Shown in pieces: positions 1 to 12,570 of a DNA stretch of 12,570 nucleotides. The first letter of the stretch is position 1, and each line of letters begins with the position of its first letter. The stretch covers positions 1 to 12,570 of the forward strand of contig JAESSV010000278.1 in the NCBI GenBank assembly GCA_016763895.1, read 5' to 3'. Origin of the DNA: Magnetovibrio sp. GTDB taxonomy: Bacteria; Pseudomonadota; Alphaproteobacteria; Rhodospirillales; Magnetovibrionaceae. The translations under genes and the position numbers were made by a program. The notes under the pieces were generated by a model that worked only from the letters and a program-made list of their open reading frames with translations, was not told where the DNA came from and did not search any database.

Positions 1-15
1 AATTTAAGTTTTATT

Positions 16-21
16 TATAAT
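16..21 (+). promoter_or_regulatory. Candidate -10 box upstream of the sigma gene
   Basis: A perfect TATAAT lies about 110 bases upstream of the sigma-like gene. The matching -35 box would fall outside the window, so it cannot be checked. If real, transcription would start near base 28 and leave a leader of about 100 bases containing the hairpin at 76-122. The surrounding DNA is so AT-rich that a chance match is quite possible. Confidence 0.2.
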
Positions 22-75
22 AAAAACACCCATAAATAAGTAATTTTAAAAATAATAAACCATAAATTGTCACAC

Positions 76-122
76 TTTCCGATTCTCTACGTCTTTATCA
101 GACAGACGTATACAATCGGAGG
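76..122 (+). promoter_or_regulatory. 5' leader hairpin covering the Shine-Dalgarno of the sigma gene
   Basis: The arms 79-84 (CCGATT) and 114-119 (AATCGG) pair exactly. Further in, 88-94 (TACGTCT) and 104-110 (AGACGTA) also pair exactly around a 9-base loop. A 3x3 internal loop with one possible T-A pair separates the two stems. The outer stem can extend through T78-A120 and two G-U pairs (76-77 with 121-122). This places all of the GGAGG ribosome binding site (118-122) in the stem opposite TTTCC (76-80). Translation of the downstream regulator could therefore depend on melting or remodelling of this hairpin. The inner palindrome could instead be a DNA operator. The pairing is read directly from the sequence; the function is inferred. 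Confidence 0.6.
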
Positions 123-130
123 TGACCATT

Positions 131-742
131 TTGTCTTGTCTAAATCAACAAGGTTCGAGTCATAAAACGGGCTCCCAAACAGCATTTAGCAATCACAGTG
201 CATTAAATCAGAATTCTGGATTTACATCTTTTGAACAAGAATGGTCCGAGCATTACCCAATGCTTCTAGGACATGCTCGACGAATATCATATCGCATATG
301 CTTAGAGCCTGAAGATATACTTTCCCAGGCCACAGTTAAGGTCTTAACGTATTTTAATAAAAACCATGAAATCAAATGTTTCCCAGCGCTTATGAAGCTT
401 TCCATTAAGCAGGTATACATTGATAGCAAGAGAAACCTTACGGAACAAATCTTCTTAAGATCTTGTGAGTTGGATGCGGACTCTAACTTTGGTCTCAAAC
501 AAGATTCAACCAATGATGTCGAGCAAAACCATTTTACAAACGAGACCTTAAGTCAGGTCTTTGGGTACGTATGTACATTACCTGATGCTTACAAAGAAAT
601 CTTTGACCTTCGTTTTTTAGATGAATGTACATTTTCTGAAATTTCTAACATAACGGGCTTATCGGAAGTTAATGCTAGGAAAAAAATAAGCACGATCAGA
701 AACAAGATTCAAAATTTTCGTTTTGAAAATAATAATAATTAA
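131..742 (+). CDS. Sigma-70-like (ECF-type) regulator heading the reb cluster
   Basis: A protein of about 203 residues with the two-domain plan of ECF sigma factors. A region-2-like segment (about residues 34-100) includes EHYPMLLGHARR and the helix after PEDILSQATVKVL. A region-4 helix-turn-helix (about 149-196) includes LPDAYKEIFDLRFLDECTF followed by a helix running SEVNARKKISTIRNKI. The first 30 residues are polar and unlike any known domain, and the end is asparagine-rich. A GTG at 122 overlaps the Shine-Dalgarno GGAGGTGA (118-125), so it is a poor start. The TTG at 131 has a 5-base spacing and is preferred. Coding GC is low: one counted 60-base sample (301-360) is 37%. The gene lies 56 bases upstream of rebB-1 on the same strand, so it probably drives or tunes reb transcription. 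No anti-sigma gene is visible. The family is fairly sure; the target promoters are inferred. Confidence 0.75.
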   Translation: MSCLNQQGSSHKTGSQTAFSNHSALNQNSGFTSFEQEWSEHYPMLLGHARRISYRICLEPEDILSQATVKVLTYFNKNHEIKCFPALMKLSIKQVYIDSKRNLTEQIFLRSCELDADSNFGLKQDSTNDVEQNHFTNETLSQVFGYVCTLPDAYKEIFDLRFLDECTFSEISNITGLSEVNARKKISTIRNKIQNFRFENNNN

Positions 743-798
743 TCATCACATATACTCGTTATGCACGTCTTAATAATAGAACGCCAATTAAGGAAAAC

Positions 799-1026
799 AT
801 GATGCCAAACGCTAGTACCGTTAATTCGCAAATTACAGATGCTGTCACGCAAACAAATGTCAAGGTCCTCGGCGAGGCCCCGGCCCAAGCTGCTGCCACG
901 TTGTATCAGGTGGCCAGTCACTCAAGTGGTCTTGCCATGGCAAATGCTGTTTCAAATCAGCAAAACCTCAACAGCCTTAACGCCGTCATTATTGCTGATG
1001 CCATAAACATCATCAAAAGCAAATAA
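799..1026 (+). CDS. rebB: RebB-family R-body structural protein (copy 1)
   Basis: A 75-residue protein of the RebB family (Pfam 'Killing trait'), whose members polymerise in the cytoplasm into R-body ribbons. The diagnostic N-terminal block QITDAVTQTNVKVLGEAPA sits at residues 11-29, followed by LYQVASHSSGLAMANAV and an NQQNLN segment. It shares this core with the RebB at 2468-2740 but is shorter. It lacks that protein's AATTQGV-type block and ends in ADAINIIKSK. The ribosome binding site AAGGA is 4 bases before ATG 799; a second ATG follows at once. There is no signal peptide, and the core is hydrophobic, alanine-rich and serine-rich as expected of an assembling subunit. Synonymous divergence from copy 2 argues for an old duplication. 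The family call is strong; its exact place in the ribbon is unknown. Confidence 0.88.
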   Translation: MMPNASTVNSQITDAVTQTNVKVLGEAPAQAAATLYQVASHSSGLAMANAVSNQQNLNSLNAVIIADAINIIKSK

Positions 1027-1039
1027 AGGATAAAAAAAT

Positions 1040-1450
1040 ATGCCTAGTCTTGACAGTGCTCAGAACACAGATGACCCCGTTCCCTCTTCGGAATTGACCG
1101 CAGACGATTCAGATCAAGACGTTGTTGCAGACGTTGAGCCCTTTGACCCATCTGTTAATTTCATCAACAGTACGGTTTTAGATGCAAAGTCAGGCCTAGA
1201 TATCAACATGGGATCTCAAATTGCCAATCAATCTGCCGGAATGATGATCGAAGACATGCGAGCTTTTATTCAAGGAAACCAACAAATTTTGAATATAGCC
1301 ATCGCTGAATGTCTTAAGAAAATTGTCGAGTCAGATGGCGCAAACGGGAACACTGCGCTTAAAGACTGCACCGCATTTATGACAGATATGACGGTGTATA
1401 TCGGCGAATTAAGCAGCAAGGCTGGGGCAATCTCGAAAGACTTTAAATAG
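1040..1450 (+). CDS. Divergent Reb-like protein with an acidic N-terminal tail
   Basis: A 136-residue protein starting 13 bases after rebB-1, with AAAGGA as ribosome binding site. Residues 1-36 are strongly acidic, with many Asp and Glu and no Lys or Arg. Residues 38-95 align by eye with the RebB core: NMGSQIANQSAGMMIEDMRA matches the MGTLYQALAHSTGLMFENSV pattern, followed by GNQQILNIA against NQQNILSQA. A C-terminal extension (about 96-136) carries one of its two cysteines (C91, C110). No signal peptide or clear membrane span is present. It is probably an accessory ribbon subunit or an assembly-modulating paralogue. Membership of the Reb family is inferred from pattern and context, not from a search. 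The acidic tail contrasts with the basic tail of the Reb-like protein at 2073-2360. Confidence 0.7.
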   Translation: MPSLDSAQNTDDPVPSSELTADDSDQDVVADVEPFDPSVNFINSTVLDAKSGLDINMGSQIANQSAGMMIEDMRAFIQGNQQILNIAIAECLKKIVESDGANGNTALKDCTAFMTDMTVYIGELSSKAGAISKDFK

Positions 1451-1478
1451 GTAATATTTCACCTTATGGAGACCGTCG

Positions 1479-2048
1479 ATGACGATAAAAAACACAATTG
1501 CAAATCAAAAAAAGAAAACAGAAAAGGTCATCGAAAAAGCGACCGCAGAAATTGCCCATGCCGACGATCTGGTTAAGGCAAAAACAAATCCGGATACTGT
1601 TGCTGTTACCCAAAAATCTGACCCGGATCTGGCACACATAAGTCTTGAAGAACTGGCCAAAAATAACGGTGCATTAGAATTAGGCCCAACCAGACAAAGA
1701 TCAAAGACAGACGATAAAGTCCAGCCGGATAAAAAGTTATCGGAAGAAAAACAAGAGCTGACACCTGAACAATATGAAACTCTTAAAAAAGAAATAACAC
1801 ACGACATACTTGCAAAACTAATTCCAATTATGCAGAACTTGGAATTAGCCGTAAAATCGGTAACGGATGAAAACACACAAAAAGTCAACGATAAAGAATT
1901 GAATGCTATTCATAAGATTTATAAAGATGAAACTGCTGAGCTCAATAAACTTTGCAAAGATAATTCAAATAAACTTAATAAAATAAAACGATTATCAACG
2001 TCTCGACTCAATGAGATGAAACTTAAATATTACAAATTTCAACGTTAA
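1479..2048 (+). CDS. Hypothetical charged, helical protein within the reb cluster
   Basis: A 189-residue protein that I do not recognise. It is rich in Lys, Glu, Asp and Asn and has no signal peptide or membrane span. Residues 1-90 are low in hydrophobics and look disordered. Residues 95-189 form long predicted helices (PEQYETLKKEITHDILAKLI and a second helix from about 140) with spacing suggestive of a coiled coil. A single cysteine lies at position 159, and the C-terminus is basic (KLKYYKFQR). The start has the leader TATGGAGACC with GGAG 7 bases upstream, and the same leader precedes the next reb-like gene. One counted sample of its coding DNA (1981-2040) is 27% GC, the lowest seen in the window. 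Position inside the cluster suggests an assembly, scaffold or chaperone role for the R-body, perhaps analogous to non-structural Reb proteins. That is inference only. Confidence 0.8.
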   Translation: MTIKNTIANQKKKTEKVIEKATAEIAHADDLVKAKTNPDTVAVTQKSDPDLAHISLEELAKNNGALELGPTRQRSKTDDKVQPDKKLSEEKQELTPEQYETLKKEITHDILAKLIPIMQNLELAVKSVTDENTQKVNDKELNAIHKIYKDETAELNKLCKDNSNKLNKIKRLSTSRLNEMKLKYYKFQR

Positions 2049-2072
2049 AAAATAAAATGTATGGAGACCAAA

Positions 2073-2360
2073 ATGTCGAAAAATAAAGAACCCAAAAAAC
2101 ATAAGCCACACGTCGAAACGTACCCAAACATGCAATCAATTGTAGAGGTGTCTCCGAATGTTTCGATGGGCAACTTAATGTTAGCGAATTCATATGTTTT
2201 AGGCTCACAATTTTTATCTATGGCGACCAACAACCAATTGAACAATCAAACAAGCATGGCAGCCACGGCCAAAAACGTTGTTAAAATTTTAGGCACAACG
2301 AATGCTGATATGAATGCTTTGACGACAAGAATTGCCGGCGGAATCATAAATAACAATTAG
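2073..2360 (+). CDS. Divergent Reb-like protein with a basic N-terminal tail
   Basis: A 95-residue protein. Start ATG 2073 is chosen over the in-frame ATG at 2061 because the upstream one lies within the Shine-Dalgarno element TATGGAGACC, whereas 2073 has GGAG 6 bases ahead. Residues 1-13 (MSKNKEPKKHKPH) are strongly basic. The rest fits the Reb pattern: EVSPNVSMGNLMLANSYVLG corresponds to GEAPAMAMGTLYQALAHSTG of RebB-2, and QLNNQTSMAATAKNVVKIL corresponds to its NQQNILSQAATTQGVMQIY. It lacks the canonical QITDAVTQTNVKV start, replaced by YPNMQSIV. It is likely a structural or capping variant of the R-body ribbon. A 107-base gap holding two hairpins separates it from the last reb gene. Family assignment is by eye and fairly convincing. 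Confidence 0.75.
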   Translation: MSKNKEPKKHKPHVETYPNMQSIVEVSPNVSMGNLMLANSYVLGSQFLSMATNNQLNNQTSMAATAKNVVKILGTTNADMNALTTRIAGGIINNN

Positions 2361-2375
2361 GTACAAAAGAGTTTC

Positions 2376-2409
2376 AACCTTTCACCTCATGCTTATGAGG
2401 TGAAAGGTT
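2376..2409 (+). promoter_or_regulatory. Perfect 15-bp hairpin between reb genes
   Basis: Arms 2376-2390 and 2395-2409 are exact reverse complements around the tetraloop GCTT. The right arm is followed by AGAAAAG rather than a T-run, so it is not a textbook intrinsic terminator. It starts 15 bases after the stop of the basic-tailed Reb-like gene and 58 bases before rebB-2. It could protect the upstream mRNA from 3' exonucleases, guide RNA processing, or partly terminate transcription, so setting different doses of the Reb subunits. The structure is seen in the sequence; the role is inferred. Confidence 0.75.
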
Positions 2410-2417
2410 AGAAAAGA

Positions 2418-2435
2418 CAACGGAATGTTCCGTTG
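2418..2435 (+). promoter_or_regulatory. Second, short hairpin just upstream of rebB-2
   Basis: CAACGGAA (2418-2425) pairs with TTCCGTTG (2428-2435), realistically as 7 bp with a 4-base loop. Eight bases after the first hairpin, it forms a tandem pair with it. A further TCCGTT at 2438-2443 could compete for the same left arm, so two alternative folds are possible ahead of the rebB-2 ribosome binding site (AGGA, 2455-2458). Confidence 0.5.
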
Positions 2436-2467
2436 CCTCCGTTAACTTTAAGATAGGAATGAAAAAC

Positions 2468-2740
2468 ATGTCTACTGTTTCACCACAAATCACCGATGCC
2501 GTAACCCAAACAAACGTTAAAGTCGTTGGAGAAGCACCCGCAATGGCAATGGGTACACTTTATCAAGCCCTCGCTCACTCAACCGGTTTGATGTTTGAAA
2601 ACTCTGTTATTGCGCAGAATCAACAAAACATTCTATCTCAAGCTGCAACAACGCAAGGCGTTATGCAAATCTACAGTGTTGATACAATTACTGATGCAAT
2701 TGCCGTTTCTCAAATGCTTCAAGCTTCAAGTGAAACCTAA
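2468..2740 (+). CDS. rebB: RebB-family R-body structural protein (copy 2, full-length type)
   Basis: A 90-residue RebB homologue with the complete family pattern. QITDAVTQTNVKVVGEAPAM lies at residues 7-26, then MGTLYQALAHSTGLMFENSV, then NQQNILSQAATTQGVMQIYS, ending in a hydrophobic TDAIAVSQMLQAS helix. The in-frame ATG at 2459 abuts AGGA with no spacing. ATG 2468 has a 9-base spacing and gives the usual MSTV-QITDAV start, so it is chosen. It is probably the main ribbon subunit. It stands last in the cluster, after two hairpins and before a terminator, which suggests expression that differs from its neighbours. Family assignment is strong. Confidence 0.9.
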   Translation: MSTVSPQITDAVTQTNVKVVGEAPAMAMGTLYQALAHSTGLMFENSVIAQNQQNILSQAATTQGVMQIYSVDTITDAIAVSQMLQASSET

Positions 2741-2751
2741 GTTCATAAATT

Positions 2752-2793
2752 CTGGCGAGGATTGGGAAAAAGCCTTTCCTCGCCAGTTGTTTA
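2752..2793 (+). terminator. Intrinsic terminator closing the reb cluster
   Basis: CTGGCGAGGA (2752-2761) and TCCTCGCCAG (2777-2786) are exact reverse complements. A 15-base loop may close further through GG/CC. TTGTTT follows. It begins 11 bases after the stop codon of rebB-2, which is the right place for a 3' end of the reb transcript. The T-tract is short, so termination may be incomplete. Confidence 0.75.
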
Positions 2794-2848
2794 GGACCAT
2801 CGATACATAAGATTTCCGTCCATCCTATTTTCCCTTTTTAATAATTAG

Positions 2849-2860
2849 GTGTAAATACAC
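2849..2860 (+). promoter_or_regulatory. Palindrome upstream of the marR gene, candidate operator
   Basis: GTGTA (2849-2853) and TACAC (2856-2860) form an inverted repeat with a 2-base centre, ending 34 bases before the MarR start codon. MarR dimers usually bind short palindromes near their own promoter, so autoregulation is plausible. The site is short and could arise by chance. Confidence 0.35.
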
Positions 2861-2894
2861 TCGGTTGATATGGTTTTTAAGGTAGAAAAGATCA

Positions 2895-3362
2895 ATGAAC
2901 TCGACAACAAGCCCAGACCTCAGAGCTTTGGATCTCAGTGAAACTGCAAATTGTGCATGTTTTAATGTGCGAAAAACAGCGCGTTCGATTACGCAATATT
3001 ACGCAAGCTTTCTGGCAAACTCACCTTTAAAAGAAACACAGTTTTCAATACTTTCGGTGCTTACACAAACAGAACCTTTGCCAATAGGTAAGTTGGCGGA
3101 AATTTTACTGATGGAACGGACCACCTTAACTCGAAACCTTAAGCCTTTGATTTTACGTGACTTTATATCGATTTCTCCCGGAAAAGACAAACGATCAAGG
3201 CTGGTCAGTCTGACAAATACGGGATCTAAGGCTTTCGCGGAAACGCTTCCCCAATGGCAAAAGGCACAAAAAAATCTAATCGCTAAATTTGGCAAAGTTA
3301 AATGGGCTTTGTTACGCAAGCAACTCACCACGTTACAATCTTTAACGATCGACCCGATGTAA
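2895..3362 (+). CDS. MarR-family winged-helix transcriptional regulator
   Basis: A 155-residue protein of typical MarR length. After an N-terminal dimerisation helix (NCACFNVRKTARSITQYYAS, about residues 19-38) comes the winged helix. LKETQFSILSVL is followed by PIGKLAEILLMERTTLTRNL (recognition helix about 70-85), and the wing carries DKRSRLVSLTNTG. A C-terminal helix completes the dimer interface. The cysteines C20 and C22 at the N-terminus are notable, since some MarR proteins sense oxidants or metals through cysteines, but sensing here is speculative. AAGG stands about 12 bases before the ATG, so translation may be weak. The gene follows the reb terminator by about 100 bases with a palindrome in between. 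It may control itself or the reb genes; no adjacent target transporter or enzyme is seen. Confidence 0.85.
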   Translation: MNSTTSPDLRALDLSETANCACFNVRKTARSITQYYASFLANSPLKETQFSILSVLTQTEPLPIGKLAEILLMERTTLTRNLKPLILRDFISISPGKDKRSRLVSLTNTGSKAFAETLPQWQKAQKNLIAKFGKVKWALLRKQLTTLQSLTIDPM

Positions 3363-3425
3363 CAAGATCGAACCCAGCTGTTTGAGCGTCAAGGAATTGT
3401 CAAAACAATCAAAATATTGAAGACA

Positions 3426-3482
3426 CAGTTTGGAGGCCCAGTTTGGAGGCCCAGTTTGGAGGCCCAGTTTGGAGGCACAGTT
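3426..3482 (+). repeat. 13-bp tandem repeat, four copies
   Basis: Unit CAGTTTGGAGGCC occurs at 3426-3438, 3439-3451 and 3452-3464. A fourth copy at 3465-3477 has its last base changed to A, and a partial CAGTT follows. It lies in the noncoding gap between marR and ppiD. The near-perfect identity of the copies suggests recent slippage expansion and variable copy number between strains. It is not CRISPR, because there are no spacers. Confidence 0.9.
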
Positions 3483-3540
3483 AAAGGGCTTGAGAATGTC
3501 GTTAAAACTCTCAGAAAGCACGTATTCCTCCCTTGCTGTT

Positions 3541-3567
3541 CCCCCCCCGGCCTCTTATGATGCCGGG
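3541..3567. other. C8 tract with a GC-rich hairpin upstream of ppiD
   Basis: Eight consecutive C (3541-3548) run into CCCGGC (3546-3551), which pairs with GCCGGG (3562-3567) around a 10-base loop. A T-rich stretch begins only about 13 bases downstream, so it is a weak terminator candidate for marR at best. The rest of the 250-base gap (3363-3612) holds the 13-bp repeat and the ppiD ribosome binding site; I see no gene in it. Confidence 0.4.
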
Positions 3568-3612
3568 CGTTGAATAACTTTGTTTTTTTGATTCTTAAGG
3601 TGCCTGTTTCTT

Positions 3613-5505
3613 ATGCTTAAACTTATGCGCAAATCTGTGAACTCTATTTTCGTTAAAGCCCTGTTGGTGATGCTCATCGCCAGTTTTGCCGTCTGGGGTA
3701 TCGGCGATGTGTTTAAGGCGGGGCGTTCAGATACGTCCGTAGCCAAGGTGGGCAACATGCCGATTTCTGCGGCTAGCTTTAAGTCTGAACTGGCCCGCGA
3801 AGTTGAACGCGTACAACGCACCATCAACCCGAACATCACGCGTGACCAAGCCATTGCCATGGGTATTGGGGATATGTTGTTGAGCCGTATGGTGAATTCG
3901 GCCATTCTCAACGCCGGAGCACAAGACATGCGCTTGATGGTTTCAAAAACGGCGATTTTGAATGAGATCAAAAATTCCAAAGATTTCTTCAACGATGCGG
4001 GCGTCTTTGACAGCCGGGTTTTCACCCAACTGCTGTCCAATAATGGTCTCAGCGAAGACCGGTATGTCCAATACCTGCGCCAAGGCATGGAACGCGATCA
4101 AATGTTAAGCGCGATTACAAGTGGTGCCATCCCGCCCAAACTCTTGACCGATGCTTTGTACACCTACGAAGCCGAAAAGCGTGTTTTGGACGTTTTACGC
4201 ATCAATTATGCTCAAATCAAAAATGTTCCCAAGCCAACCGACGCTGAACTTTCCGCGTATCATGAAAGCCACACGAATAATTTTATGGCCCCTGAATATC
4301 GATCCATTACGGCTTTGGTGTTAAATGCTGCTGATCTTGCCAAAACGATTGATTTGACGGATGAAGACATTCAAAACGCATACGATGACAGCATCGACGA
4401 TTATTCGAAACCCGAAAAACGCACCTTGAAACAAATTTTGGTCAAAGACGAACTCGTGGCAAGCCGTGCCGCCCAGTTGTTGGACCAAGGCAAAACATTT
4501 GCCGACGTTGCCAAAGACGTTGGAGCAAACCCAGCCTTGATGAACATTGGCACCATGAGCCGCGACGATGTTGCGAACCTGTCTGCTGATCTTGCCACGG
4601 CGGCTTTTTCCGTATCCAAAGGCCAACACACGGCCCCGGTCAAAAGCCCTCTTGGTTGGCATGTGGTGGTGGTCGAAGGCCTTGTGAAAGGCACCGTTAC
4701 GCCCCTGAACAAAGTCAAAGACACCTTGAAAACAAAATTGCAAATGGCCAAGGCTTTGGATGCCTTGTTTGGCCTATCCAACCAATTGGAAGATCTTTTG
4801 GGCAGCGGAATGACCTTGGAAGAAGCCTCTCAGGACCTTGGCATTGGTTTGGATAAAGCCGAAAATATTGATGCCCAAGGTTTAGGCCTTGATGGCAAAG
4901 CCGTTACATTCCCCTTTGTCGCTGATATTTTAAAGGCATCTCTCACGCTGCAAGCTGGCGATGAAAGTACGATGTCCGAAAGCGAAGACAACCAGTCCTT
5001 TTTCGTCGTGCGTGTTGATGCTGTAACGCCATCTGCTTTGCGTCCACTGGACACCGTAAAAGGTACGGTTGCTCAAGCCTGGACGGTTTCAAAACGGGCC
5101 GAAATGGCGGCTGAATTGGCAAAAACTGCGCAAACCCGGCTGCAATCTGGTGAAGATTTGAACGCGGTTGCCAAGGACATGGGCTTTGCTTCCTTTATCA
5201 CGTTGCCGTTTACCCGAACCGGTCAAGGCTTGCAACAAGGGGCGGTGCCCGTGAACGTCATCAAGTCCGTATTCACCTTACCTCAGGGTGGCGTTGCCGA
5301 AGCCGCCGGAACCGGTGCCCATACGGTGGCGCGCGTCAATACCATCCACGCCGCAACACAAGGCGATGCCGACCCAATTTATAAATCCGTAACCGCACAA
5401 ACCACCCGCGCCTTGCAAAACGACTTGGTGCAGCAAATGACCGAAGCCTTACAGGTGCGTTTCCCGGTGCGGGTCAACCAACAAAATCTTAAAGATGTGT
5501 ACTGA
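3613..5505 (+). CDS. ppiD: PpiD-like membrane-anchored periplasmic peptidyl-prolyl isomerase (SurA_N plus rotamase)
   Basis: A 630-residue protein, the usual length for PpiD. A short basic cytoplasmic tail precedes a single membrane span (about residues 12-30, SIFVKALLVMLIASFAVWGI) that anchors the protein with its bulk in the periplasm. A SurA-type N-terminal chaperone domain follows (about 38-165), with the characteristic VAKVGNMPISAASFKSEL start. A parvulin rotamase domain (about 268-358) has KRTLKQILVKDE, the MNIGTMSRDDV segment and SPLGWHVVVVEG. A second SurA-like C-terminal half completes it. It assists folding of secreted and outer-membrane proteins. ATG 3613 has AAGGTG about 10 bases upstream; ATG 3625 is an alternative. 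trpE starts 8 bases after its stop, an arrangement common in alphaproteobacteria, so the two are probably co-transcribed. Parvulin domains in PpiD are often weakly active, so chaperoning may be the main role. Confidence 0.9.
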   Translation: MLKLMRKSVNSIFVKALLVMLIASFAVWGIGDVFKAGRSDTSVAKVGNMPISAASFKSELAREVERVQRTINPNITRDQAIAMGIGDMLLSRMVNSAILNAGAQDMRLMVSKTAILNEIKNSKDFFNDAGVFDSRVFTQLLSNNGLSEDRYVQYLRQGMERDQMLSAITSGAIPPKLLTDALYTYEAEKRVLDVLRINYAQIKNVPKPTDAELSAYHESHTNNFMAPEYRSITALVLNAADLAKTIDLTDEDIQNAYDDSIDDYSKPEKRTLKQILVKDELVASRAAQLLDQGKTFADVAKDVGANPALMNIGTMSRDDVANLSADLATAAFSVSKGQHTAPVKSPLGWHVVVVEGLVKGTVTPLNKVKDTLKTKLQMAKALDALFGLSNQLEDLLGSGMTLEEASQDLGIGLDKAENIDAQGLGLDGKAVTFPFVADILKASLTLQAGDESTMSESEDNQSFFVVRVDAVTPSALRPLDTVKGTVAQAWTVSKRAEMAAELAKTAQTRLQSGEDLNAVAKDMGFASFITLPFTRTGQGLQQGAVPVNVIKSVFTLPQGGVAEAAGTGAHTVARVNTIHAATQGDADPIYKSVTAQTTRALQNDLVQQMTEALQVRFPVRVNQQNLKDVY

Positions 5506-5513
5506 GGCCTGAA

Positions 5514-7044
5514 ATGGATTTAAACCCCAGCATCGGTGTCTTTGAAAAAGCGTATGATGAAGGTCGCCCCCAAGTGGTGTGGACCACCTTGGTCGCGGAT
5601 TTAGACACACCCGTGTCCACTTATCTTAAATTGGTTGGCGAAGACAGCCATGCCTTTTTGTTGGAATCTGTCGAAGCTGGGGCCCATCGAGGCCGTTATT
5701 CTTTTGTGGGATGCCGCCCGGATATTGTGTGGAAAGCAAATGGAAACACCGCCGACATCAACCGCAATGCCCTAACCAAAATTGACGACTTTGCCCCCTG
5801 CCCCGTGGCCAAGCAAGACGGCACGTTGAAATCCTTGCGGGCTTTGTTGGCCGAAAGCCGCATCGATATGTCGGCGACGGTCTATCAAGGCCTTCCGCCC
5901 ATGGCGGCCGGTTTGGTGGGCTATATGGGTTACGATACGGTGCGTTTATCCGAAAACATACCCGACACCAACCCAGACGTTTTAAATGTTCCCGACGGCA
6001 TTTTTTTTGCGGGCAACCGTGACGGCCATTTTCGACAATACCAAAGATTTAATGTATGTGGTTTCGCCTGTTTACCCCACGCCAGACCTGACCGCAGTGC
6101 AAGCGTTTGATTTGGCCCAAGATCGTTTGGCCCACGTGGTGGCTGATTTCGATCAGGCTTTACCGCCTCAAACAACACAAGACGATGTCAAAGATTTGAT
6201 GGCCCCCGTCAGCAACATATCCAAATCAGCATTTTTTGATATGGTGGAACGGGCCAAACAATACATCCTAGCCGGAGACGTTTTCCAGGTGGTGCTGAGC
6301 CAACGGTTTAAAATGCCGTTCACCTTACCGCCGTTTTCGTTCTATCGGTCTTTGCGCCGTGTGAACCCGTCCCCGTTTTTGTTTTTCTTAGATTTTGGTG
6401 ACTTTCAAGTGGCGGGGTCCAGCCCCGAAATCTTGGTGCGTTTGAGAAATGGGCAAGTGACCATTCGGCCCATTGCCGGCACCCGCATCCGGGGCGCCAA
6501 CGAAGCCGAAGATGAAGCCCTTAAAAAAGATCTACTATCTGACCCCAAAGAACGGGCCGAACACTTGATGTTGCTTGATTTGGGCCGCAATGACATTGGT
6601 CGCGTGTCCAAAGTCGGATCCATCGATGTTACCGACAGCTATATTGTCGAACTGTACAGCCACGTTATGCATATTGTGTCCAATGTGGTGGGCAAGATCC
6701 AAGATGACAAAGATGCGCTGGACGCTTTGTATGCTGGTTTTCCAGCCGGAACCGTGTCGGGTGCCCCCAAAGTCCGGGCTATGGAAATTATTGATGAATT
6801 AGAACCTGAAAAACGCGGTGTTTATGCGGGATGTATCGGTTATTTTGGGGCCGATGGCGAAATGGACACCTGTATTGCCCTGCGGACAGCTATCATTAAG
6901 GATAATATGCTGTATGCTCAAGCCGGTGGCGGCATTGTTATGGATTCAACCCCTCAAGGTGAATTTGACGAAAGCTGTAACAAAGCCAAAGCATTGATAC
7001 GAGCCGCCGAAGAAGCGGTCCGTTTCGCTAAAAACAAAAATTAA
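5514..7044 (+). CDS. trpE: Anthranilate synthase component I, interrupted by a one-base frameshift
   Basis: TrpE converts chorismate to anthranilate with ammonia supplied by TrpG, the first step of tryptophan synthesis. The N-terminal part (frame starting 5514) carries the tryptophan feedback site LLES (residues 49-52). The C-terminal part, in the next frame, carries the chorismate-binding core: PIAGTRIRG, LLDLGRND, FPAGTVSGAPK and AQAGGGIVMDS. The first frame stops at 6110 and the second opens at 5986. The switch falls on a run of eight T (6001-6008). With seven T the reading continues as PDGIFLRATVTAIFDN and yields one 509-residue protein of normal length with every motif intact. The extra T may be a sequencing error, a true mutation, or a site of RNA polymerase slippage. 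TGAGG precedes the ATG. trpG does not follow, unlike the usual trpEGDC order. Confidence 0.88.
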
Positions 7045-7081
7045 GACATAAAATCAAGACGTAAAAGCAAGACAGTAAGAG
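7043..7081 (+). repeat. Degenerate 13-bp tandem repeat just after trpE
   Basis: AAGACATAAAATC (7043-7055) and AAGACGTAAAAGC (7056-7068) match at 11 of 13 bases. A weaker third unit, AAGACAGTAAGAG, follows. The array begins inside the trpE stop codon. The period equals that of the 3426-3482 repeat but the sequence is unrelated. No function is apparent. Confidence 0.5.
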
Positions 7082-7129
7082 TTACGATATAAGTAGCGTT
7101 CGCCCCCCTTTTGTTCAAGGAAGTCCAAA

Positions 7130-7624
7130 ATGCGCAGTTTAATCATAGCCATGACCATTCTTTTTTCTGTTTCTGCGGCCCACGCGGAAACATTTCCCGT
7201 GATCACCGATAAAACCGTTCTTTCCGAATGCACCGATTGCCACATGGCGTTTCCTCCGCAAACGTTGACCAAAGCAGTCTGGACAAAAATTATGGGGGAT
7301 CTGTCAAACCACTTTGGTGAAGATGCCAGCTTGGACGCAGCGTCGACGGCGATCATTTTAGATTATCATCTTAAAAATGCGAATGACGTCAGCAAGGTGC
7401 GGGCATCCATGAAATGGAAAACAACTCCCCCCGCGTCCCGTGTTCTTCTGGCATCACGCTTTATTCGCAAACACAAGGGATGCGAGGCTGCTTTTGCTCA
7501 TGAAAAAGTCAAATTGGCATCAAATTGCCTAGCTTGTCATGGCGATATGCAAAAAACAGGAAGCACCAAAGAAAACCTACGCTTCTTGCCAGCGTCCATC
7601 CGGGCCAGTTGCGGCGAAGACTAA
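7130..7624 (+). CDS. Secreted diheme cytochrome c, DHC family
   Basis: A 164-residue protein with a clear signal peptide (MRSLIIAMTILFSVSAAHA, cleavage after residue 19), so it acts in the periplasm. Two c-type heme sites are visible: CTDCH (residues 34-38) and CLACH (133-137). The segment CHMAFPPQTLTKAVWTKIMG, followed by LSNHFGEDASLD, matches the diheme cytochrome c family known from Rhodobacter DHC, which passes electrons to the oxygen-binding SHP cytochrome and usually sits beside a cytochrome b561. Neither partner is encoded here. AAGGAAG lies 6 bases before the ATG. The gene is 85 bases downstream of trpE and ends 20 bases from the convergent response regulator gene. The physiological partner is unknown. 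Confidence 0.85.
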   Translation: MRSLIIAMTILFSVSAAHAETFPVITDKTVLSECTDCHMAFPPQTLTKAVWTKIMGDLSNHFGEDASLDAASTAIILDYHLKNANDVSKVRASMKWKTTPPASRVLLASRFIRKHKGCEAAFAHEKVKLASNCLACHGDMQKTGSTKENLRFLPASIRASCGED

Positions 7625-7644
7625 ATTTTCATGAAGTCCAGATC

Positions 7645-8022
7645 CTAGGCCGCAAGACCGCTCAGGCAATCTCTGACACATGTGGTCAAGTCATCTTCTT
7701 GGAAGGGCTTTTGCAGGGTTGCTGTAACGCCAAGTTCGCTAGCAATGTTTAGGTAGTCGGAAAAAGCTGTACGACCACCGCCGGATATGGCTATGATTTT
7801 AATGCCGGGATAATCTCGTTTCAGCTCAATAATCGTTTCAATGCCTTCTTTGCCCGGCATGATAAGATCGGTGATGATCAGTTGAAATTGTTTTTGTTGA
7901 TGCAAAAGAATGCCAACATTTCCGTTTTCAGCATCGGTCACTTCATAACCTGCTGTTTCCAATGTTATACGCAGAGATTCCCGCACCATTTCTTCGTCAT
8001 CAATTACCAAGATTCTAACCAT
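7645..8022 (-). CDS. Single-domain (CheY-like) response regulator
   Basis: A 125-residue receiver domain and nothing more. The acidic pocket is D8 and D9 (VIDDEE). The phospho-acceptor is D52 in LIITDLIMPG. The conserved Ser is S80 in IIAISGGG, and the Lys is K105 in LQKPF. There is no output domain, so it must act by protein contact or as a phosphate carrier in a relay. It lies 57 bases downstream of the histidine kinase gene on the same strand, its likely phosphodonor. GGGGAA stands 7 bases before the ATG. It converges with the cytochrome gene. Confidence 0.9.
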   Translation of the reverse strand: MVRILVIDDEEMVRESLRITLETAGYEVTDAENGNVGILLHQQKQFQLIITDLIMPGKEGIETIIELKRDYPGIKIIAISGGGRTAFSDYLNIASELGVTATLQKPFQEDDLTTCVRDCLSGLAA

Positions 8023-8079
8023 TTAAATGTTCCCCAAGACTTAAATTTCGAGCACTCGTTTTAATTTGGCACCCTTTTA

Positions 8080-9516
8080 TCACGCAATAATAACATCTTC
8101 ATATAAGGGAAGATAGATATTCATTGAGGTGCCCTCGCCCAGCAAAGTTTCAATGATTAACCGTCCGTTATGATTGGAAATGATGCCATAGGCAATGGCC
8201 AGCCCCATTCCGGTACCCTTACCAACTTCCTTGGTGGTGAAAAAAGGGTCCATGGCGCGTCTGCGGGTTTCTTCTGTCATGCCTTGTCCGTTGTCTTTCA
8301 CAACGATATGAGCGTATGCGCACGCTTTCTTATCTTGCCTCAAGTTTAAGTCTTTGCTGATGCTTAAAGATATCGTCACCTCACCTTTTTGGCCTTCGAT
8401 TGCATCAAAAGCATTAGAGGCTAAATTAATTAAAACAGCCGATATTTGTGATTTGTCGACCATAACTTGACCAACATTTTCGTCAATATTGACGTTTAAA
8501 TGAATTAAAGGTGGTTTTAAGGGCTGGATCAGGGCAAGGGCTGTTTCAACGAGTTCAGCGGCCTCTTCGCGTTCCAAAACACCACTGCCTTGACGGCTGA
8601 ATTCCAGTATTTTTTTAACCAAAAACTGAACCTGTCCAGCCGCCCTGATCACAAATCCCAAATCATGCCCTTCCTTGGCATCTTTGGGCAGACGTTTAAT
8701 AACCGAAGACGTAATATTGCTTATGGGCACCAGCATATTGTTGATATCGTGGGCAATTCCACTGGCAAGACTGCCCAAGCTTTCCATTTTTTGGGACTGA
8801 CGAATGATGCGATCGGCTTCGACTTGCTTTTTCAACAAACCGCGCAGGCGGAAAATAACCAATGTGCCGACAACCGAAAGCAGCAGGAAGGAGATAAGGT
8901 TTACGGCTTGGACAATCGACCCATCAAACTTGAGGTTTTCTTCACGTTGGTTCAAAAGAACCCGTTCGCGCTCTTGCATATTAAAAAGAATCAAGCGCAG
9001 CTCATCCATAACAGCCTTACCACGGTTCGTATTGACCAAGTCGATTGCAGCCAAGGAACCCCTTGAGCGATATAGCGAAATGGTTTTAGCCAATTCATCC
9101 ATTTTTTCGTCAATCAAAGGCTTTGCATAAACAAGGTTCTTTTGTTGTTCTGCGTTATCTAAAGTTAGCTGTTTAACCTTGGCAAAATTGCTATCCAACA
9201 GGGTCAGGGCTGCGTTGAACGGTTCTAAGTACTTTTCTTCCCCGGTCAACAAAAACCCCCGTTGTCCGGTTTCAGCATCCTGTAAACTTGACAAAACATG
9301 GGTCAAGGCCTTTTGAACTTCGAATGAATGAGCCACCCACTTGCGGGCGTCTTCGGTCCGATTAAGGGTCCAAAAAGACGAACTTAAAACGATCAACAAG
9401 ATCACAAAACCAGCCACCAGCGCCCGAAACCATGTTGAACGGAGCTCTTCATTTTGCTGGCGTTCCGCCAAACGCGTGGGGCTTGAAGGATCAATGTGTG
9501 TTTTAAATTGAGACAT
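8080..9516 (-). CDS. CHASE3-domain sensor histidine kinase
   Basis: A 478-residue membrane kinase. It has a first membrane span (about residues 29-51), then a periplasmic CHASE3 sensor domain (about 55-195) with the typical LQDAETGQRGFLLTGEEKYL motif, and a second span (about 203-224). HisKA follows with phospho-acceptor H256 in SGIAHDINNML. The HATPase domain shows the N box (NLASNAFDA, N368), DNGQGM (408-413), FFTTK and GKGTGMGLA. All catalytic residues are present. The ligand sensed by CHASE3 cannot be told from sequence. Its cognate partner is probably the single-domain regulator immediately downstream. No strong Shine-Dalgarno is visible before the ATG. The copper chaperone gene ends 53 bases upstream, so joint transcription with it is possible. 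Confidence 0.92.
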   Translation of the reverse strand: MSQFKTHIDPSSPTRLAERQQNEELRSTWFRALVAGFVILLIVLSSSFWTLNRTEDARKWVAHSFEVQKALTHVLSSLQDAETGQRGFLLTGEEKYLEPFNAALTLLDSNFAKVKQLTLDNAEQQKNLVYAKPLIDEKMDELAKTISLYRSRGSLAAIDLVNTNRGKAVMDELRLILFNMQERERVLLNQREENLKFDGSIVQAVNLISFLLLSVVGTLVIFRLRGLLKKQVEADRIIRQSQKMESLGSLASGIAHDINNMLVPISNITSSVIKRLPKDAKEGHDLGFVIRAAGQVQFLVKKILEFSRQGSGVLEREEAAELVETALALIQPLKPPLIHLNVNIDENVGQVMVDKSQISAVLINLASNAFDAIEGQKGEVTISLSISKDLNLRQDKKACAYAHIVVKDNGQGMTEETRRRAMDPFFTTKEVGKGTGMGLAIAYGIISNHNGRLIIETLLGEGTSMNIYLPLYEDVIIA

Positions 9517-9569
9517 TTATGAAAGTTATAACGAAACTCAGGCATCGTAAAGTCTAAGTCGGGTTAAGC

Positions 9570-9770
9570 CTAAGCAGGTCCACCAAACTCAAATCCAGAA
9601 TCTTCGACCACTTGCGCCATGGTTTTCGCATCAATGCCGTCAACCGTGATGGTTTTCGCATCCAAATCAACCTTAACCTTGGCCTCAGTTGATATTTCCA
9701 AAATTGCTTTTGTAATGGACTTTGCGCAACCTTCGCAGCTCATGCCCAAAACGCTGTATGTATCACTCAT
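9570..9770 (-). CDS. copZ: Copper chaperone, heavy-metal-associated domain (CopZ-like)
   Basis: A single ferredoxin-like HMA domain of 66 residues with the metal-binding motif GMSCEGC (C12 and C15) near the N-terminus, then KVDLDAKTITVDG and a C-terminal VVEDSGFEF. It binds Cu(I) in the cytoplasm and hands it to a P1B ATPase. ATG 9770 is preferred over an upstream in-frame start at 9830: the N-terminus MSDTYSVLGM is typical and AAGGGA lies about 5 bases ahead of it. The longer form would overlap the end of the deacetylase gene. It is on the same strand as copA and cueR but separated from them by the deacetylase gene. Confidence 0.87.
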   Translation of the reverse strand: MSDTYSVLGMSCEGCAKSITKAILEISTEAKVKVDLDAKTITVDGIDAKTMAQVVEDSGFEFGGPA

Positions 9771-9826
9771 GGCGTCCCTTTCTTTAATGTATGTCCATAG
9801 ACTTACGCCTTCCACCGATGGGAAGG

Positions 9827-11110
9827 TCAATTTTCTTTTCGAGCCAGACGCTGGATCATCACCGTCGACAAAGGCACAATGGCAAGACCGCGTTCAAGGG
9901 CATTTGGAATCCAGGTTTTCAAGGCTTGGATGGTTGCTTCTCGGGGATGACCGATGGCAATAGCAACACCGCGTTTGCGGGCCAAGCGTTCGGCTTCCCC
10001 CAATTGTTTCAAAACTTTATCAATTTCATTATCATTATCGATAAAGACGTTGCGAACCAAGGTCGGCATCCCCAGTTCCCGGGCCACCCGTCCAGCGACA
10101 GATTTTGGGGATGTGCGGCTGTCTAAAAATAACACGCCGCGTTTTTTCACCTGTTCCAACACCACGCGCATGGCATGAGCATTTTCGGTGAACAAGCTGC
10201 CCATATGATTGTTGACGCCTATATAACCGTCAAAACGGTCAAGCCCCCAATTGGTGATTTTCGTAAGCTCTTGGTCTTTCATCGCCGTCAACAAAACGTT
10301 TGGCCCGGCGTCAATGCTCGCATCCGACGGTTCCATGGACATATGCAGCATCATTTCATGCCCTTTAGCCCGGGCGGCCTTGGTTTGTTTTAACAAATCA
10401 TTGGCGTACGTCATAAAAGACAACGTCAATGGAGCCTGTACGTTTTCCCACATTCGCTTTGACCGTTTACGATCGACCCCCATGTCGTCAATAACAAGGG
10501 CAATCATGGGCCTGCCGGCTGTGGGCGTGAAGGGCAGCGCATTTTTAAGCCAAGCCGGACGATCTGCTCCACCTTGTTGAGACGGTGGCTTTAACGTTGC
10601 GACGTCAACGGGACCAGAAACGGGACCAGAAACGGGGGCAACAGCAACCTCAACAGCAGCCTCAACAACAGCTGTTGGTGCAAGAGGGACATACACCTCA
10701 TCTACAACTTTTTCTTCATAGGCCCTCTTCATGTTTACATCGTCAACATGTGGTTCCGGTAAAATGACCGACAAACCATCCAGAGATTGCTGAACAAAAG
10801 CCCGTTTCGGCGTTTTTTTAAGGGTTGGTGCATCAAAAAGCGCTTGAGCGCCCAAGTACCCGCCCCCGACGGCAACTCCAAGTACGATCATAAATGCCGC
10901 AGCAAAAGGGGTTTCAATGGTGTGGCGCATGCCCGGCACATGAAATTTAGGGGGTAGTTTTGCAAAGATCCGCGCAATCGGTCCCAGCAACACTTTCAGG
11001 CGCAACGCTTGATGTTGGGCATAGTGTTTCTTTGCCTGACGCTTTGCCCTTGCGGGACCCTTTTTTGGAGTCTTAAGCTTTGTTTTATGCGTAACGTTTT
11101 TACGGGCCAC
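9827..11110 (-). CDS. Divergent polysaccharide deacetylase family protein (YibQ-like)
   Basis: A 427-residue protein. Residues 1-65 are very basic (Lys, Arg, His-rich) and cytoplasmic. One membrane span follows (about 68-91), then a low-complexity Ala/Val/Pro linker (about 140-185) that includes the repeat VSGPVSGPV. The C-terminal domain (about 200-423) belongs to the divergent polysaccharide deacetylase family (PF04748). Its motifs are ALVIDDMG, GHEMMLHMSMEP, GVNNHMGS, LFLDSRTSP and AIGHPR. These resemble the metal-binding and catalytic motifs of NodB-type enzymes, and the domain should be periplasmic. The substrate is unknown. The start is GTG with a poor Shine-Dalgarno. It sits between cueR and copZ without an obvious copper link. 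The long basic N-terminus is more than most relatives have. Confidence 0.87.
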   Translation of the reverse strand: MARKNVTHKTKLKTPKKGPARAKRQAKKHYAQHQALRLKVLLGPIARIFAKLPPKFHVPGMRHTIETPFAAAFMIVLGVAVGGGYLGAQALFDAPTLKKTPKRAFVQQSLDGLSVILPEPHVDDVNMKRAYEEKVVDEVYVPLAPTAVVEAAVEVAVAPVSGPVSGPVDVATLKPPSQQGGADRPAWLKNALPFTPTAGRPMIALVIDDMGVDRKRSKRMWENVQAPLTLSFMTYANDLLKQTKAARAKGHEMMLHMSMEPSDASIDAGPNVLLTAMKDQELTKITNWGLDRFDGYIGVNNHMGSLFTENAHAMRVVLEQVKKRGVLFLDSRTSPKSVAGRVARELGMPTLVRNVFIDNDNEIDKVLKQLGEAERLARKRGVAIAIGHPREATIQALKTWIPNALERGLAIVPLSTVMIQRLARKEN

Positions 11111-11184
11111 AGGATCAATTCCAATACCTTTAAGATTCGTATACGCACAATCCTATGCTTAAGGCTTCACGTCAACGCACGCCT

Positions 11185-11604
11185 TCATTTGTGACATACT
11201 TTCTTTTCTTCAATCGCCAGCCCAGCCAAACCTTCCAGGATCGGACAATCTGGCCTGTCGTCTCCATGACAGCATTCGGTTAAGTTTTTCAAAGTATTGC
11301 GAATACTTTCAAGTTCAGAAATACGTTGTTCGATTTCGGCTATGTGTTTAAGCGCAACCGCTTTCACGTCTGCGCTGGCACGGTCTTTGTTGACCCATAA
11401 GTCCAACAAATTTGAAACATCACCAACGGAAAACCCCATCGCCCGTGATCGTTTGACAAACCGCAAGATTTCCACGTCATTTTCGCCATAATCCCGATAA
11501 CCATTTTCGGCTCGGTCCGCTTGGCTGATCAATCCAATGCTTTCGTAATAGCGGATGGTTTTGGCCGAAACGCCCGATTTTTTAGAAACAGTTCCAATAT
11601 TCAT
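11185..11604 (-). CDS. cueR: Copper-responsive MerR-family regulator CueR
   Basis: A 139-residue MerR regulator with an N-terminal winged helix (NIGTVSKKSGVSAKTIRYYE), a long dimerisation helix, and the Cu(I) loop. C112 and C120 in CHGDDRPDC stand at the same positions as in E. coli CueR, and S77 also corresponds. The extra C111 and a terminal CHK are additional potential ligands. ATG 11604 is chosen over an in-frame start 7 codons upstream: it overlaps the copA stop as ATGA and has AGGA 6 bases ahead. Translational coupling to copA is therefore likely. CueR activates copper-efflux promoters by DNA distortion; its target promoter should lie upstream of copA, outside this window. Confidence 0.92.
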   Translation of the reverse strand: MNIGTVSKKSGVSAKTIRYYESIGLISQADRAENGYRDYGENDVEILRFVKRSRAMGFSVGDVSNLLDLWVNKDRASADVKAVALKHIAEIEQRISELESIRNTLKNLTECCHGDDRPDCPILEGLAGLAIEEKKVCHK

Positions 11605-12570
11605 CTCGTCATTCCTGGTTTCCATCGTTTTAACAAAAGCGAATTGCTGACCACGGACACCGAGCTCATGGCCATAGCGGCCCCGGCAATGGCCGGCGTT
11701 AATATGCCCGCAGCCGCTAGGGGCAACGCGATTATATTATAGAAAAAGGCCCAAAAAAGGTTTTGGCGAATTTTATTTACGGTGCTGCGCGATATCGATA
11801 AAGCATCGGCCACCAATGTTGGATCAGAACGCATCAACGTAATGGACGCTGAATGCATGGCAACATCTGTGCCGGACCCCATCGCCATGCCCACATCGGC
11901 CAAAGCCAAGGCCGGAGCATCGTTCACGCCATCACCAACCATGGCCACCAACGCGCCCTCACCTTGCAAACGTTTGACTTCAGCCGATTTACCCTCAGGC
12001 AAGACTTCGGCGATAACATCTGTTAATCCCAACGTGTCCGCCATGGCTTGTGCGGTCCGTTGGTTATCCCCGGTCAGCATAATGGGACGAATATTTTGGT
12101 CTTTTAAAGTCTGTATGGCCGCTTTGCTGGAGTCCCGCGCCAAGTCACCGACCGCGATATACCCCAACAAAATTGACCCATCAATGGCCCACATAACGGT
12201 GTTGCCTTGGGCTTCTGCGGCTTGTGCTGAAGCTTCGAAATCAGCGGTTGAAATAGAGCCTAAAAAAGCACGATTTCCCACCCGCAATTCATGCCCCGAA
12301 AACGTGGCTTCGATGCCATGCCCGGGATGGGCTTTAAAGCTTTCCAAGGGGGTTAATTTAACATCGCCGACGGCTTCGATGATGGCCCGTCCCAAAGGAT
12401 GTTCACTGCCTTGTTGAGCCGTGGCCACAAGCCGCAAAAGGTGCTTTTCATCCACAGCATTAACCGAAACCACGCGGGGTTTTCCTTGTGTCAGGGTTCC
12501 CGTTTTATCAAAAATAACGGTGTTAATACGGTGAGCATTTTCCAAAGCTTCGGCGTCCTTGATCAAAATG
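11601..12570 (-). CDS. copA: Cu(I)-exporting P1B-type ATPase CopA, C-terminal part, cut by the window edge
   Basis: The last 322 residues of a copper-transporting P-type ATPase. The reading frame stays open to base 12569, and the first visible residues (ILIKDAEALE) are internal to the family, so the gene continues to the right. Seen are the phosphorylation motif FDKTGTLT, the nucleotide-binding SEHPLGRAI and GHGIEA, LTGDN, and the hinge VGDGVNDAPALALADVG. Two final membrane spans carry NLFWAFFYN and MSSVSVVSNS. The YN and MxxSS residues mark Cu(I) specificity (P1B-1). It pumps Cu(I) out of the cytoplasm. cueR follows with a 4-base overlap, and copZ is nearby on the same strand. The N-terminal metal-binding domains and the CPC motif lie outside the window. 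Confidence 0.93.
   Translation of the reverse strand, partial: ILIKDAEALENAHRINTVIFDKTGTLTQGKPRVVSVNAVDEKHLLRLVATAQQGSEHPLGRAIIEAVGDVKLTPLESFKAHPGHGIEATFSGHELRVGNRAFLGSISTADFEASAQAAEAQGNTVMWAIDGSILLGYIAVGDLARDSSKAAIQTLKDQNIRPIMLTGDNQRTAQAMADTLGLTDVIAEVLPEGKSAEVKRLQGEGALVAMVGDGVNDAPALALADVGMAMGSGTDVAMHSASITLMRSDPTLVADALSISRSTVNKIRQNLFWAFFYNIIALPLAAAGILTPAIAGAAMAMSSVSVVSNSLLLKRWKPGMTR

Follow-up and report, generated by a model that had tools for sequence, protein, structure and literature searches.

Knowledge of how and when R-body (refractile body) production is controlled, and of the cells in which it takes place, is limited to few strains. A sigma factor linked to reb genes is already known (here and below, statements on published systems refer to the accessible parts of the cited texts): reb loci of Raymann Group 2 (Raymann 2013) often have a putative sigma factor (PMC3583457), and in the reb cluster of the gammaproteobacterium PA14 the sigma factor FecI2 is needed for reb expression, as is RcgA, with expression being stochastic and found in 0.26% of cells, and with no promoter sequence given (PMC8322103). 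The reb operon of Azorhizobium, an alphaproteobacterium, likewise has dedicated local control through PraR/RebR, but by a repressor plus an activator, with no sigma factor mentioned in the main text (PMC5527310), whilst Caedibacter rebABCD is a compact small reb gene set comprising four reb genes, with no sigma gene in the operon as described (PMC13430693). Here we analyse a 12570-nucleotide stretch of Magnetovibrio sp. DNA (contig C230, bases 1-12570; 'the window') from a genome of 1.94 Mb in 293 contigs that is 59% complete. Within its first 2.8 kb lie six same-strand genes, encoding a sigma factor, RebA, the products of open reading frames (ORFs) 3, 4 and 5, and RebB. We read them, with a probability of roughly 80%, as a compact R-body operon run by its own extracytoplasmic function (ECF)-type sigma factor, which would read a promoter element, RTCACA-N15-CGTC, and so form a positive-feedback switch.

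The gene families could be identified directly. The product of the first gene, predicted by the initial annotation to be an ECF-type sigma factor, scored 50.6 bits against the general sigma-70/ECF model TIGR02937 (cut-off 42.9; profile positions 3-163 of 165), passing the general sigma2 plus sigma4 model that marks ECF membership, and 29.8 bits, above cut-off, against PF08281; among solved structures, the sigma profile comes closest to the ECF sigma factors SigW, SigH and SigE. Its best start, the TTG at 131, stands behind the Shine-Dalgarno sequence GGAGGTGA at 119-126 and agrees with the start given in that annotation. The two RebB homologues it proposed were also borne out by PF11747 (RebB; curated cut-off 24 bits), with 77.3 bits (E 9.9e-22) for RebA and 107.2 bits (E 4.4e-31) for RebB, the latter being the best RebB score in a phylum sample of 397 genomes. 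Both proteins retain QITD, KVLGE/KVVGE and QQ, the signatures of primary Reb proteins being QITD, KXXXD/E and QQ(Q) (PMC13430693). ORF5 stayed under the cut-off (18.3 bits, E 0.0025), ORF3 matched no Pfam family, and ORF4 gave neither a RebB match nor any significant family; two of the five small proteins thus pass PF11747 and a third falls below it. The reb genes are clustered, with rebA and rebB in one operon and likely distant members between them, and no further RebB gene was found in the 59%-complete genome.

The initial annotation had made its proposal depend on a gene order conserved in relatives, and such an order was observed in two further genomes. A search of a 5.8-billion protein set returned three relatives of the sigma factor besides itself (57, 57 and 39% identity; 43 candidates scored), and a contig scan with sigma relatives gave five loci, two of which, L039 (titled Rhodobacter sp. 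MAG, metagenome-assembled genome) and L040 (titled uncultured Alphaproteobacteria), contain reb genes, both in the order sigma-rebA-ORF3-extra gene-ORF4-ORF5-rebB. The stretches examined of the other three loci (L041-L043, Oscillatoria/Laspinema sigma relatives) contained no reb gene; these cyanobacterial sigma relatives, two per locus, score 94-140 bits against the reb-sigma profile. A phmmer comparison of window proteins with those of L039 and L040, confined to 13 proteins that did not include L039 ORF4, gave clear matches for sigma (E 1.6e-42 and 7e-38, respectively), RebA (6.5e-22 and 4e-27), ORF3 (1e-14 and 3e-12) and RebB (3.5e-35 and 2e-32). The scores of ORF5 (E 0.055 and 0.0038, no better than the 0.00097 that it gave against L039 RebB) and of ORF4 (E 0.02 only, against L040) were weak, and it is therefore position, more than sequence, that pairs these two with their counterparts. 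In a tree whose cluster proteins were picked at phmmer E < 1e-9, the three RebA proteins formed their own clade (support 0.96), as did the three RebB proteins (support 0.87).

The same element, RTCACA-N15-CGTC, an ECF-style -35/-10 pair, stands before both the sigma gene and rebA in all three compact operons (6/6, spacer exactly 15), and each of the three stretches holds two exact matches and no others, with 0.04-0.07 expected. The exact pattern was fixed on these three operons and then tested on 18 further reb loci. Across the resulting 21 loci (286 kb) there were 38 exact matches in 13 loci, 32 of them outside the three discovery loci, and by a fixed rule (from -30 to 300 bp before the ORF) 36 of the 38 preceded a same-strand reb or sigma gene. 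The remaining two fell inside over-extended reb ORF calls, at L035 8467 and at L038 7608, the latter about 115 bp before the Reb domain. Changing the spacer over the same 21 loci left eight matches at 16 and 0-3 each at 11-14 and 17-20, as compared with 38 at 15; the reversed pattern matched once, and 300 scrambled patterns gave a mean of 0.86 (maximum 9). In ten whole genomes there were 91 exact matches versus 30 for the reversed control. Six exact matches elsewhere in the genome of the window were considered, five of them inside predicted ORFs and one intergenic.

The link between pattern and sigma factor is strong. All 69 sites of a looser form, TCACA-N15/16-CGTC, occurred in 14 loci of 14 genomes with a strong sigma match, and none in the seven loci of six genomes without one, where the sigma-profile score reached at most 55 bits. 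The sigma gene sits beside the reb genes in 12/14 site-bearing loci; the reb stretches of the other two (G052 and G421) have no sigma gene, and a strong one is found elsewhere in the genome (184 and 181 bits), on another contig in G052 and about 17 kb away in G421. A looser site precedes 14/14 reb-type sigma genes, those two distant ones included, and shuffles for 13 of these genes, scored with a still looser pattern, gave a mean of 0.41 and a maximum of 3. In sequence terms, a putative autoregulated promoter of the -35/-10 type is present, as P1 of the window (Table 1) and as the like sites before reb-type sigma genes, and the sigma factor probably drives both itself and the reb genes. Together with the conserved order, the promoter pattern supports the earlier suggestion, made from the sigma-first arrangement and the mix of paralogues, of a self-contained regulated system; the killing or puncturing function that was also suggested is putative.

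The element might instead be the site of a CRP/FNR-type activator, with the sigma factor acting at another sequence. TCACA resembles half of a CRP site, and 72 of the 91 exact matches in the ten genomes lie outside reb clusters. A cyclic-nucleotide-binding regulator, HP2.4, is frequent at Raymann Group 2 loci (PMC3583457), and PMC5527310 discusses Azorhizobium RebR as belonging to Crp-Fnr, although PMC13430693 calls it tetR-type. We nevertheless judge this very unlikely, the element being asymmetric, with no conserved TGTGA upstream in column counts, its spacing to CGTC being fixed at 15-16 and its presence tracking that of the sigma factor. Among the window ORFs examined, none was recognised as a CRP-type gene, and no HP2.4-type regulator appeared in a Pfam scan of the seven ORFs at 122-3362 or on reading the ORF list; the contig ends 130 bp before the sigma gene, so that such a gene might lie further upstream. 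In the compact loci, moreover, CGTC lies about 29-42 nt from the called start codons, which leaves little room for another core promoter.

Several points weigh against the sigma factor reading the element as part of a switch. The exact pattern was absent from 8/21 reb loci, and before sigma genes it occurs in the three compact operons only, the other 11 having a spacer of 16 and/or T/C as the first base; 19/91 whole-genome matches fall in reb clusters (of seven genomes), and many of the others are unexplained. Some of the 69 looser sites do not precede reb or sigma genes (for example L040 at 1206), and a looser site also stood before 2/14 control genes encoding other ECF-type sigma factors. 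The loci are partly non-independent, with five genomes from one genus and three from another; the sigma profile (A8) itself contained 12/14 of the sigma genes; and, as the called starts of the sigma ORFs are over-extended, the upstream regions searched took in 300 bp of each called ORF, the L070 site lying 17 bp inside the called sigma start. ORF3 and ORF5 score modestly as Reb relatives. No anti-sigma gene was recognised, ORF3-ORF5 matching no known anti-sigma family, although the orphan ORF4 might conceivably act as one. Lastly, binding of the sigma factor to the pattern, bistability of the loop, and the formation and action of R-bodies are all matters that we infer.

Under our preferred reading of a sigma-run R-body operon, the sigma factor would recognise RTCACA-N15-CGTC at P1, ahead of its own gene, and at P2, ahead of rebA, so that initial sigma would lead to more sigma and to reb gene expression. 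Such positive feedback would be all-or-none, and therefore predicts on/off behaviour; stochastic sigma-dependent reb expression as in PA14 would fit a feedback switch, although that system requires RcgA as well (PMC8322103). RebB and RebA would be the ribbon proteins, ORF3 and ORF5 may be distant Reb accessory or assembly subunits, and ORF4 would act as a charged helical helper. Autoactivation, if true, would offer a simple reason why few cells make R-bodies. A wider proposal, to which we give an even chance, is that an R-body-dedicated ECF sigma lineage exists in the Alphaproteobacteria with its own code (TCACAA-like, 15-16 bases, CGTC), is always autoactivating and defines a reb regulon, of which the compact operon would be the smallest bistable switch and which, in relatives, would include a new membrane-type family (compact operons) or a new three-gene accessory operon (large clusters) as candidate effectors or triggers of R-bodies. 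With a promoter code that is fixed and belongs to a single sigma lineage, control of R-body production becomes accessible to reporter assays, and candidate R-body regulon genes can be listed in uncultured genomes. In the literature on reb genes or R-bodies together with sigma factors or promoters, including PMC4362757 and PMC3377617, the compact operon, the promoter code and autoregulation are not reported in the accessible text, the FecI2 logo of PMC4362757 (Fig 2) not having been compared.

The code points to two gene sets that travel with it, namely the extra gene of the compact operons, considered below, and a three-gene set. In L031, L032, L034 and L035 a looser site precedes three genes (107-126, 93-97 and 244-276 aa) that adjoin the sigma gene; L033 has the site together with two of these genes by our own ORF calling. 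Across the loci, similarity is seen for the second protein and for the third, whereas only position links the first, and the proteins of the set showed no relation to ORF3, ORF4, ORF5 or the extra protein. Over L031 2185-3561 and its counterparts in L032-L035, the set beside the reb sigma gene spans 107-126, 93-104 and 244-276 aa. In the order-level relatives L037, L069 and L070 a looser site also lies beyond the sigma gene, and the genes after it were unrecognised.

RebB was matched in 10 of 60 relatives at E 0.01 or better, 9 of them over the cut-off (the window genome is counted in both), and in 11/397 genomes of the phylum sample at E 1e-6, several relatives having 7-10 RebB matches each in large clusters. 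These clusters were equated with Raymann Group 2 by their composition, and the labels HP21 and HP22 used for their proteins (after HP2.1 and HP2.2 of Group 2) were assigned likewise; the reb profile used to find reb ORFs was built from L031-L038 reb proteins (phmmer E < 1e-9) plus the two of the window, so that all of these are found partly by construction. Reb proteins and a putative sigma factor are common to the window and Group 2 (PMC3583457), and the sigma feature frequent in Group 2 (HP2.3) is present, with the compact sigma giving a 98.8% profile match to that of the relatives' large clusters (this and the following hhalign percentages refer to local alignments with six query profiles). 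In length the sigma factors differ: that of the compact operon has about 200 aa, whereas the ORFs called in the relatives run to 291-426 aa. For ORF5 and ORF3 the likeness is to distant Reb proteins found in the large clusters: ORF5 matched the long distant Reb labelled HP22 at 91.8% and ORF3 a distant Reb at a profile probability of 72%, whilst no tested window protein matched the inferred HP21. The window differs from Group 2 in having a six-gene, sigma-first operon with an orphan ORF4, no HP21-like protein and no recognised CRP-type gene (PMC3583457), and we regard the compact operon as related to the Group 2 reb type but divergent and shortened.

ORF5 is accordingly graded here as likely to be a distant Reb protein; its position counterpart in L040 scored just over the PF11747 cut-off (25.0 bits) and that in L039 gave no RebB match. 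For ORF3 the profile comparison hints weakly at a Reb relative. The initial annotation had counted four Reb-type proteins, of which two are certain and ORF5 is likely, so that with ORF3 included the count was generous. It had also described a charged helical protein of no recognised family, and ORF4 fits this: 35% of its residues are charged, its AlphaFold model is of helices, although a poor one (predicted local distance difference test score, pLDDT, 56.7), and a search of the 5.8-billion protein set returned the self-match only. ORF4 is 22% identical to the position-matched protein of L040 and 18% to that of L039. Kinship of ORF4 with proteins of the large clusters or of the three-gene operon was considered and dropped, no match being found. 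No relatives of RebB were found among solved structures.

It is also conceivable that the product of the compact operon is a Reb-based polymer of another kind, in place of a ribbon that coils and extends, and that ORF3 and ORF4 are novel structural components of it. The operon has two primary Reb proteins, whereas relatives with large clusters have 7-10 RebB matches there, and neither ORF4 nor the extra protein has a match in those clusters (hhalign). Both Reb proteins, however, retain the QITD, KXXXE and QQ signatures (PMC13430693), and we regard such a polymer as improbable.

The extra gene between ORF3 and ORF4 encodes 317 aa in L039 and 312 aa in L040, the two products being 33% identical, and is absent from the window, where the ORF3-ORF4 junction measures 28 bp; nor was it found elsewhere in the 59%-complete genome. 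A search in which the best 7995 candidates were scored gave eight family members including the two source proteins, and in 8/8 one or more hydrophobic stretches, towards the C-terminus, lie within residues 236-265. The protein has no Pfam domain. In its AlphaFold model (pLDDT 64.7) helices follow a beta-rich portion, and the model matched no PDB fold below E 0.17; solved relatives sought by sequence were not convincing (best E 0.2). It was found in 0/385 class genomes, an empty result that carries no weight in a search lacking a known positive, and in 1/293 and 1/194 genomes in the sets formed by G100 and G101 with their relatives, each time in the source genome itself. As this ~310-aa membrane-type gene is missing relative to both other compact operons, the operon of the window may be a reduced form or may rely on a different effector. 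A stronger version of this, that the operon is a decaying copy which lost the gene and no longer forms a working device, draws on the same absence and seems to us rather unlikely, given that all six ORFs are open and closely spaced, that both promoters and the hairpins are intact, and that rebB has the top RebB score among the 397 genomes.

Table 1. Features of the compact reb operon of the window, with the basis of each assignment.
Feature	Position	Strand	Basis
Predicted reb-sigma promoter P1 (GTCACA-N15-CGTC), before sigma gene	69..93	+	Pattern match; same exact element in L039, L040
ECF-type sigma factor, 203 aa, TTG start (GTG 122 possible)	131..742	+	TIGR02937, PF08281, profile match
Predicted reb-sigma promoter P2 (ATCACA-N15-CGTC), before rebA	745..769	+	Pattern match; same element in L039, L040
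rebA, short RebB-family protein (75 aa)	799..1026	+	PF11747 77.3 bits; own clade
ORF3, 136 aa, divergent, possibly Reb-like protein	1040..1450	+	phmmer to L039/L040 ORF3; hhalign 72% to distant Reb
ORF4, 189 aa, charged helical protein, orphan	1479..2048	+	Protein-set search, alignment, AlphaFold, composition
ORF5, 99 aa, likely distant Reb, like long secondary Reb of large clusters	2061..2360	+	PF11747 18.3 bits (sub-cut-off); hhalign 91.8% to HP22
Perfect 15-bp hairpin, ORF5-rebB gap	2376..2409	+	Fold; z -5.7 for gap; one copy in genome
Second hairpin, 7-bp, same ORF5-rebB gap	2418..2435	+	Fold
rebB, RebB-family protein (90 aa; alternative start ATG 2459)	2468..2740	+	PF11747 107.2 bits; own clade
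Terminator-like hairpin, 10-bp stem, 15-nt loop	2752..2786	+	Fold; absent from terminator-scan list

The two hairpins before rebB could shape rebB mRNA levels, and may set them apart from those of the upstream genes. The first, which the initial annotation does not mention, has a perfect stem longer than that of the closing hairpin. As a conserved feature the ORF5-rebB hairpin was rejected, folding of the gap being strong in the window (z -5.7) and in L040 (-4.8) and not above chance in L039 (-0.2); a dispersed repeat was likewise set aside on its single genome copy, and a known RNA element on the lack of any hit at gathering scores. As to the terminator with which the initial annotation closed the set, the hairpin is real, with a perfect stem. 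It has a poor T-tail, however, and is missing from the results of the terminator scan, in which loops were limited to 3-8.

The operon has a G+C content of 38.8% versus 48.6% from ppiD onward. In two genomes of the same genus, G002 and G003, the conserved gene preceding ppiD reads like rsmB; it stands directly before ppiD in G002, and two ORFs (110 and 126 aa) intervene in G003. Neither genome has a reb or marR match at this place, and the left part of the window is therefore an insertion or rearrangement relative to them. The G001 contig stops about 1.2 kb before ppiD, and this genome has a reb locus of the large-cluster type at the beginning of a different contig instead; G004 gave no ppiD match. 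A phage origin was not supported, the sigma factor and the extra protein having no relatives in viral contigs, nor was a plasmid origin, the extra protein (query P0011) having no plasmid relative and the sigma factor one distant plasmid match (29% identity). PADLOC gave no defence-system match for the sigma factor, ORF3, ORF4, ORF5 or the extra protein.

Directly after the operon lies a gene for a MarR-type regulator (2895-3362), with no match at that place in G002 or G003; a role for it as part of the system was unsupported, there being no match at E 0.01 in L039 or L040. Between this marR-like gene and ppiD is a 13-bp tandem repeat of 4.4 copies (3426-3482). Further along, trpE (5514-7044) is split into overlapping frames at 5514-6110 and 5986-7044, by an assembly error or as a broken gene, where in three same-genus relatives a single frame spans both pieces (cut by the stretch end in two). 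At the far end of the window (9570-12566), genes for a heavy-metal-binding domain protein, a MerR-type regulator and a copper-type P-ATPase lie close together, as read from the ORF list.

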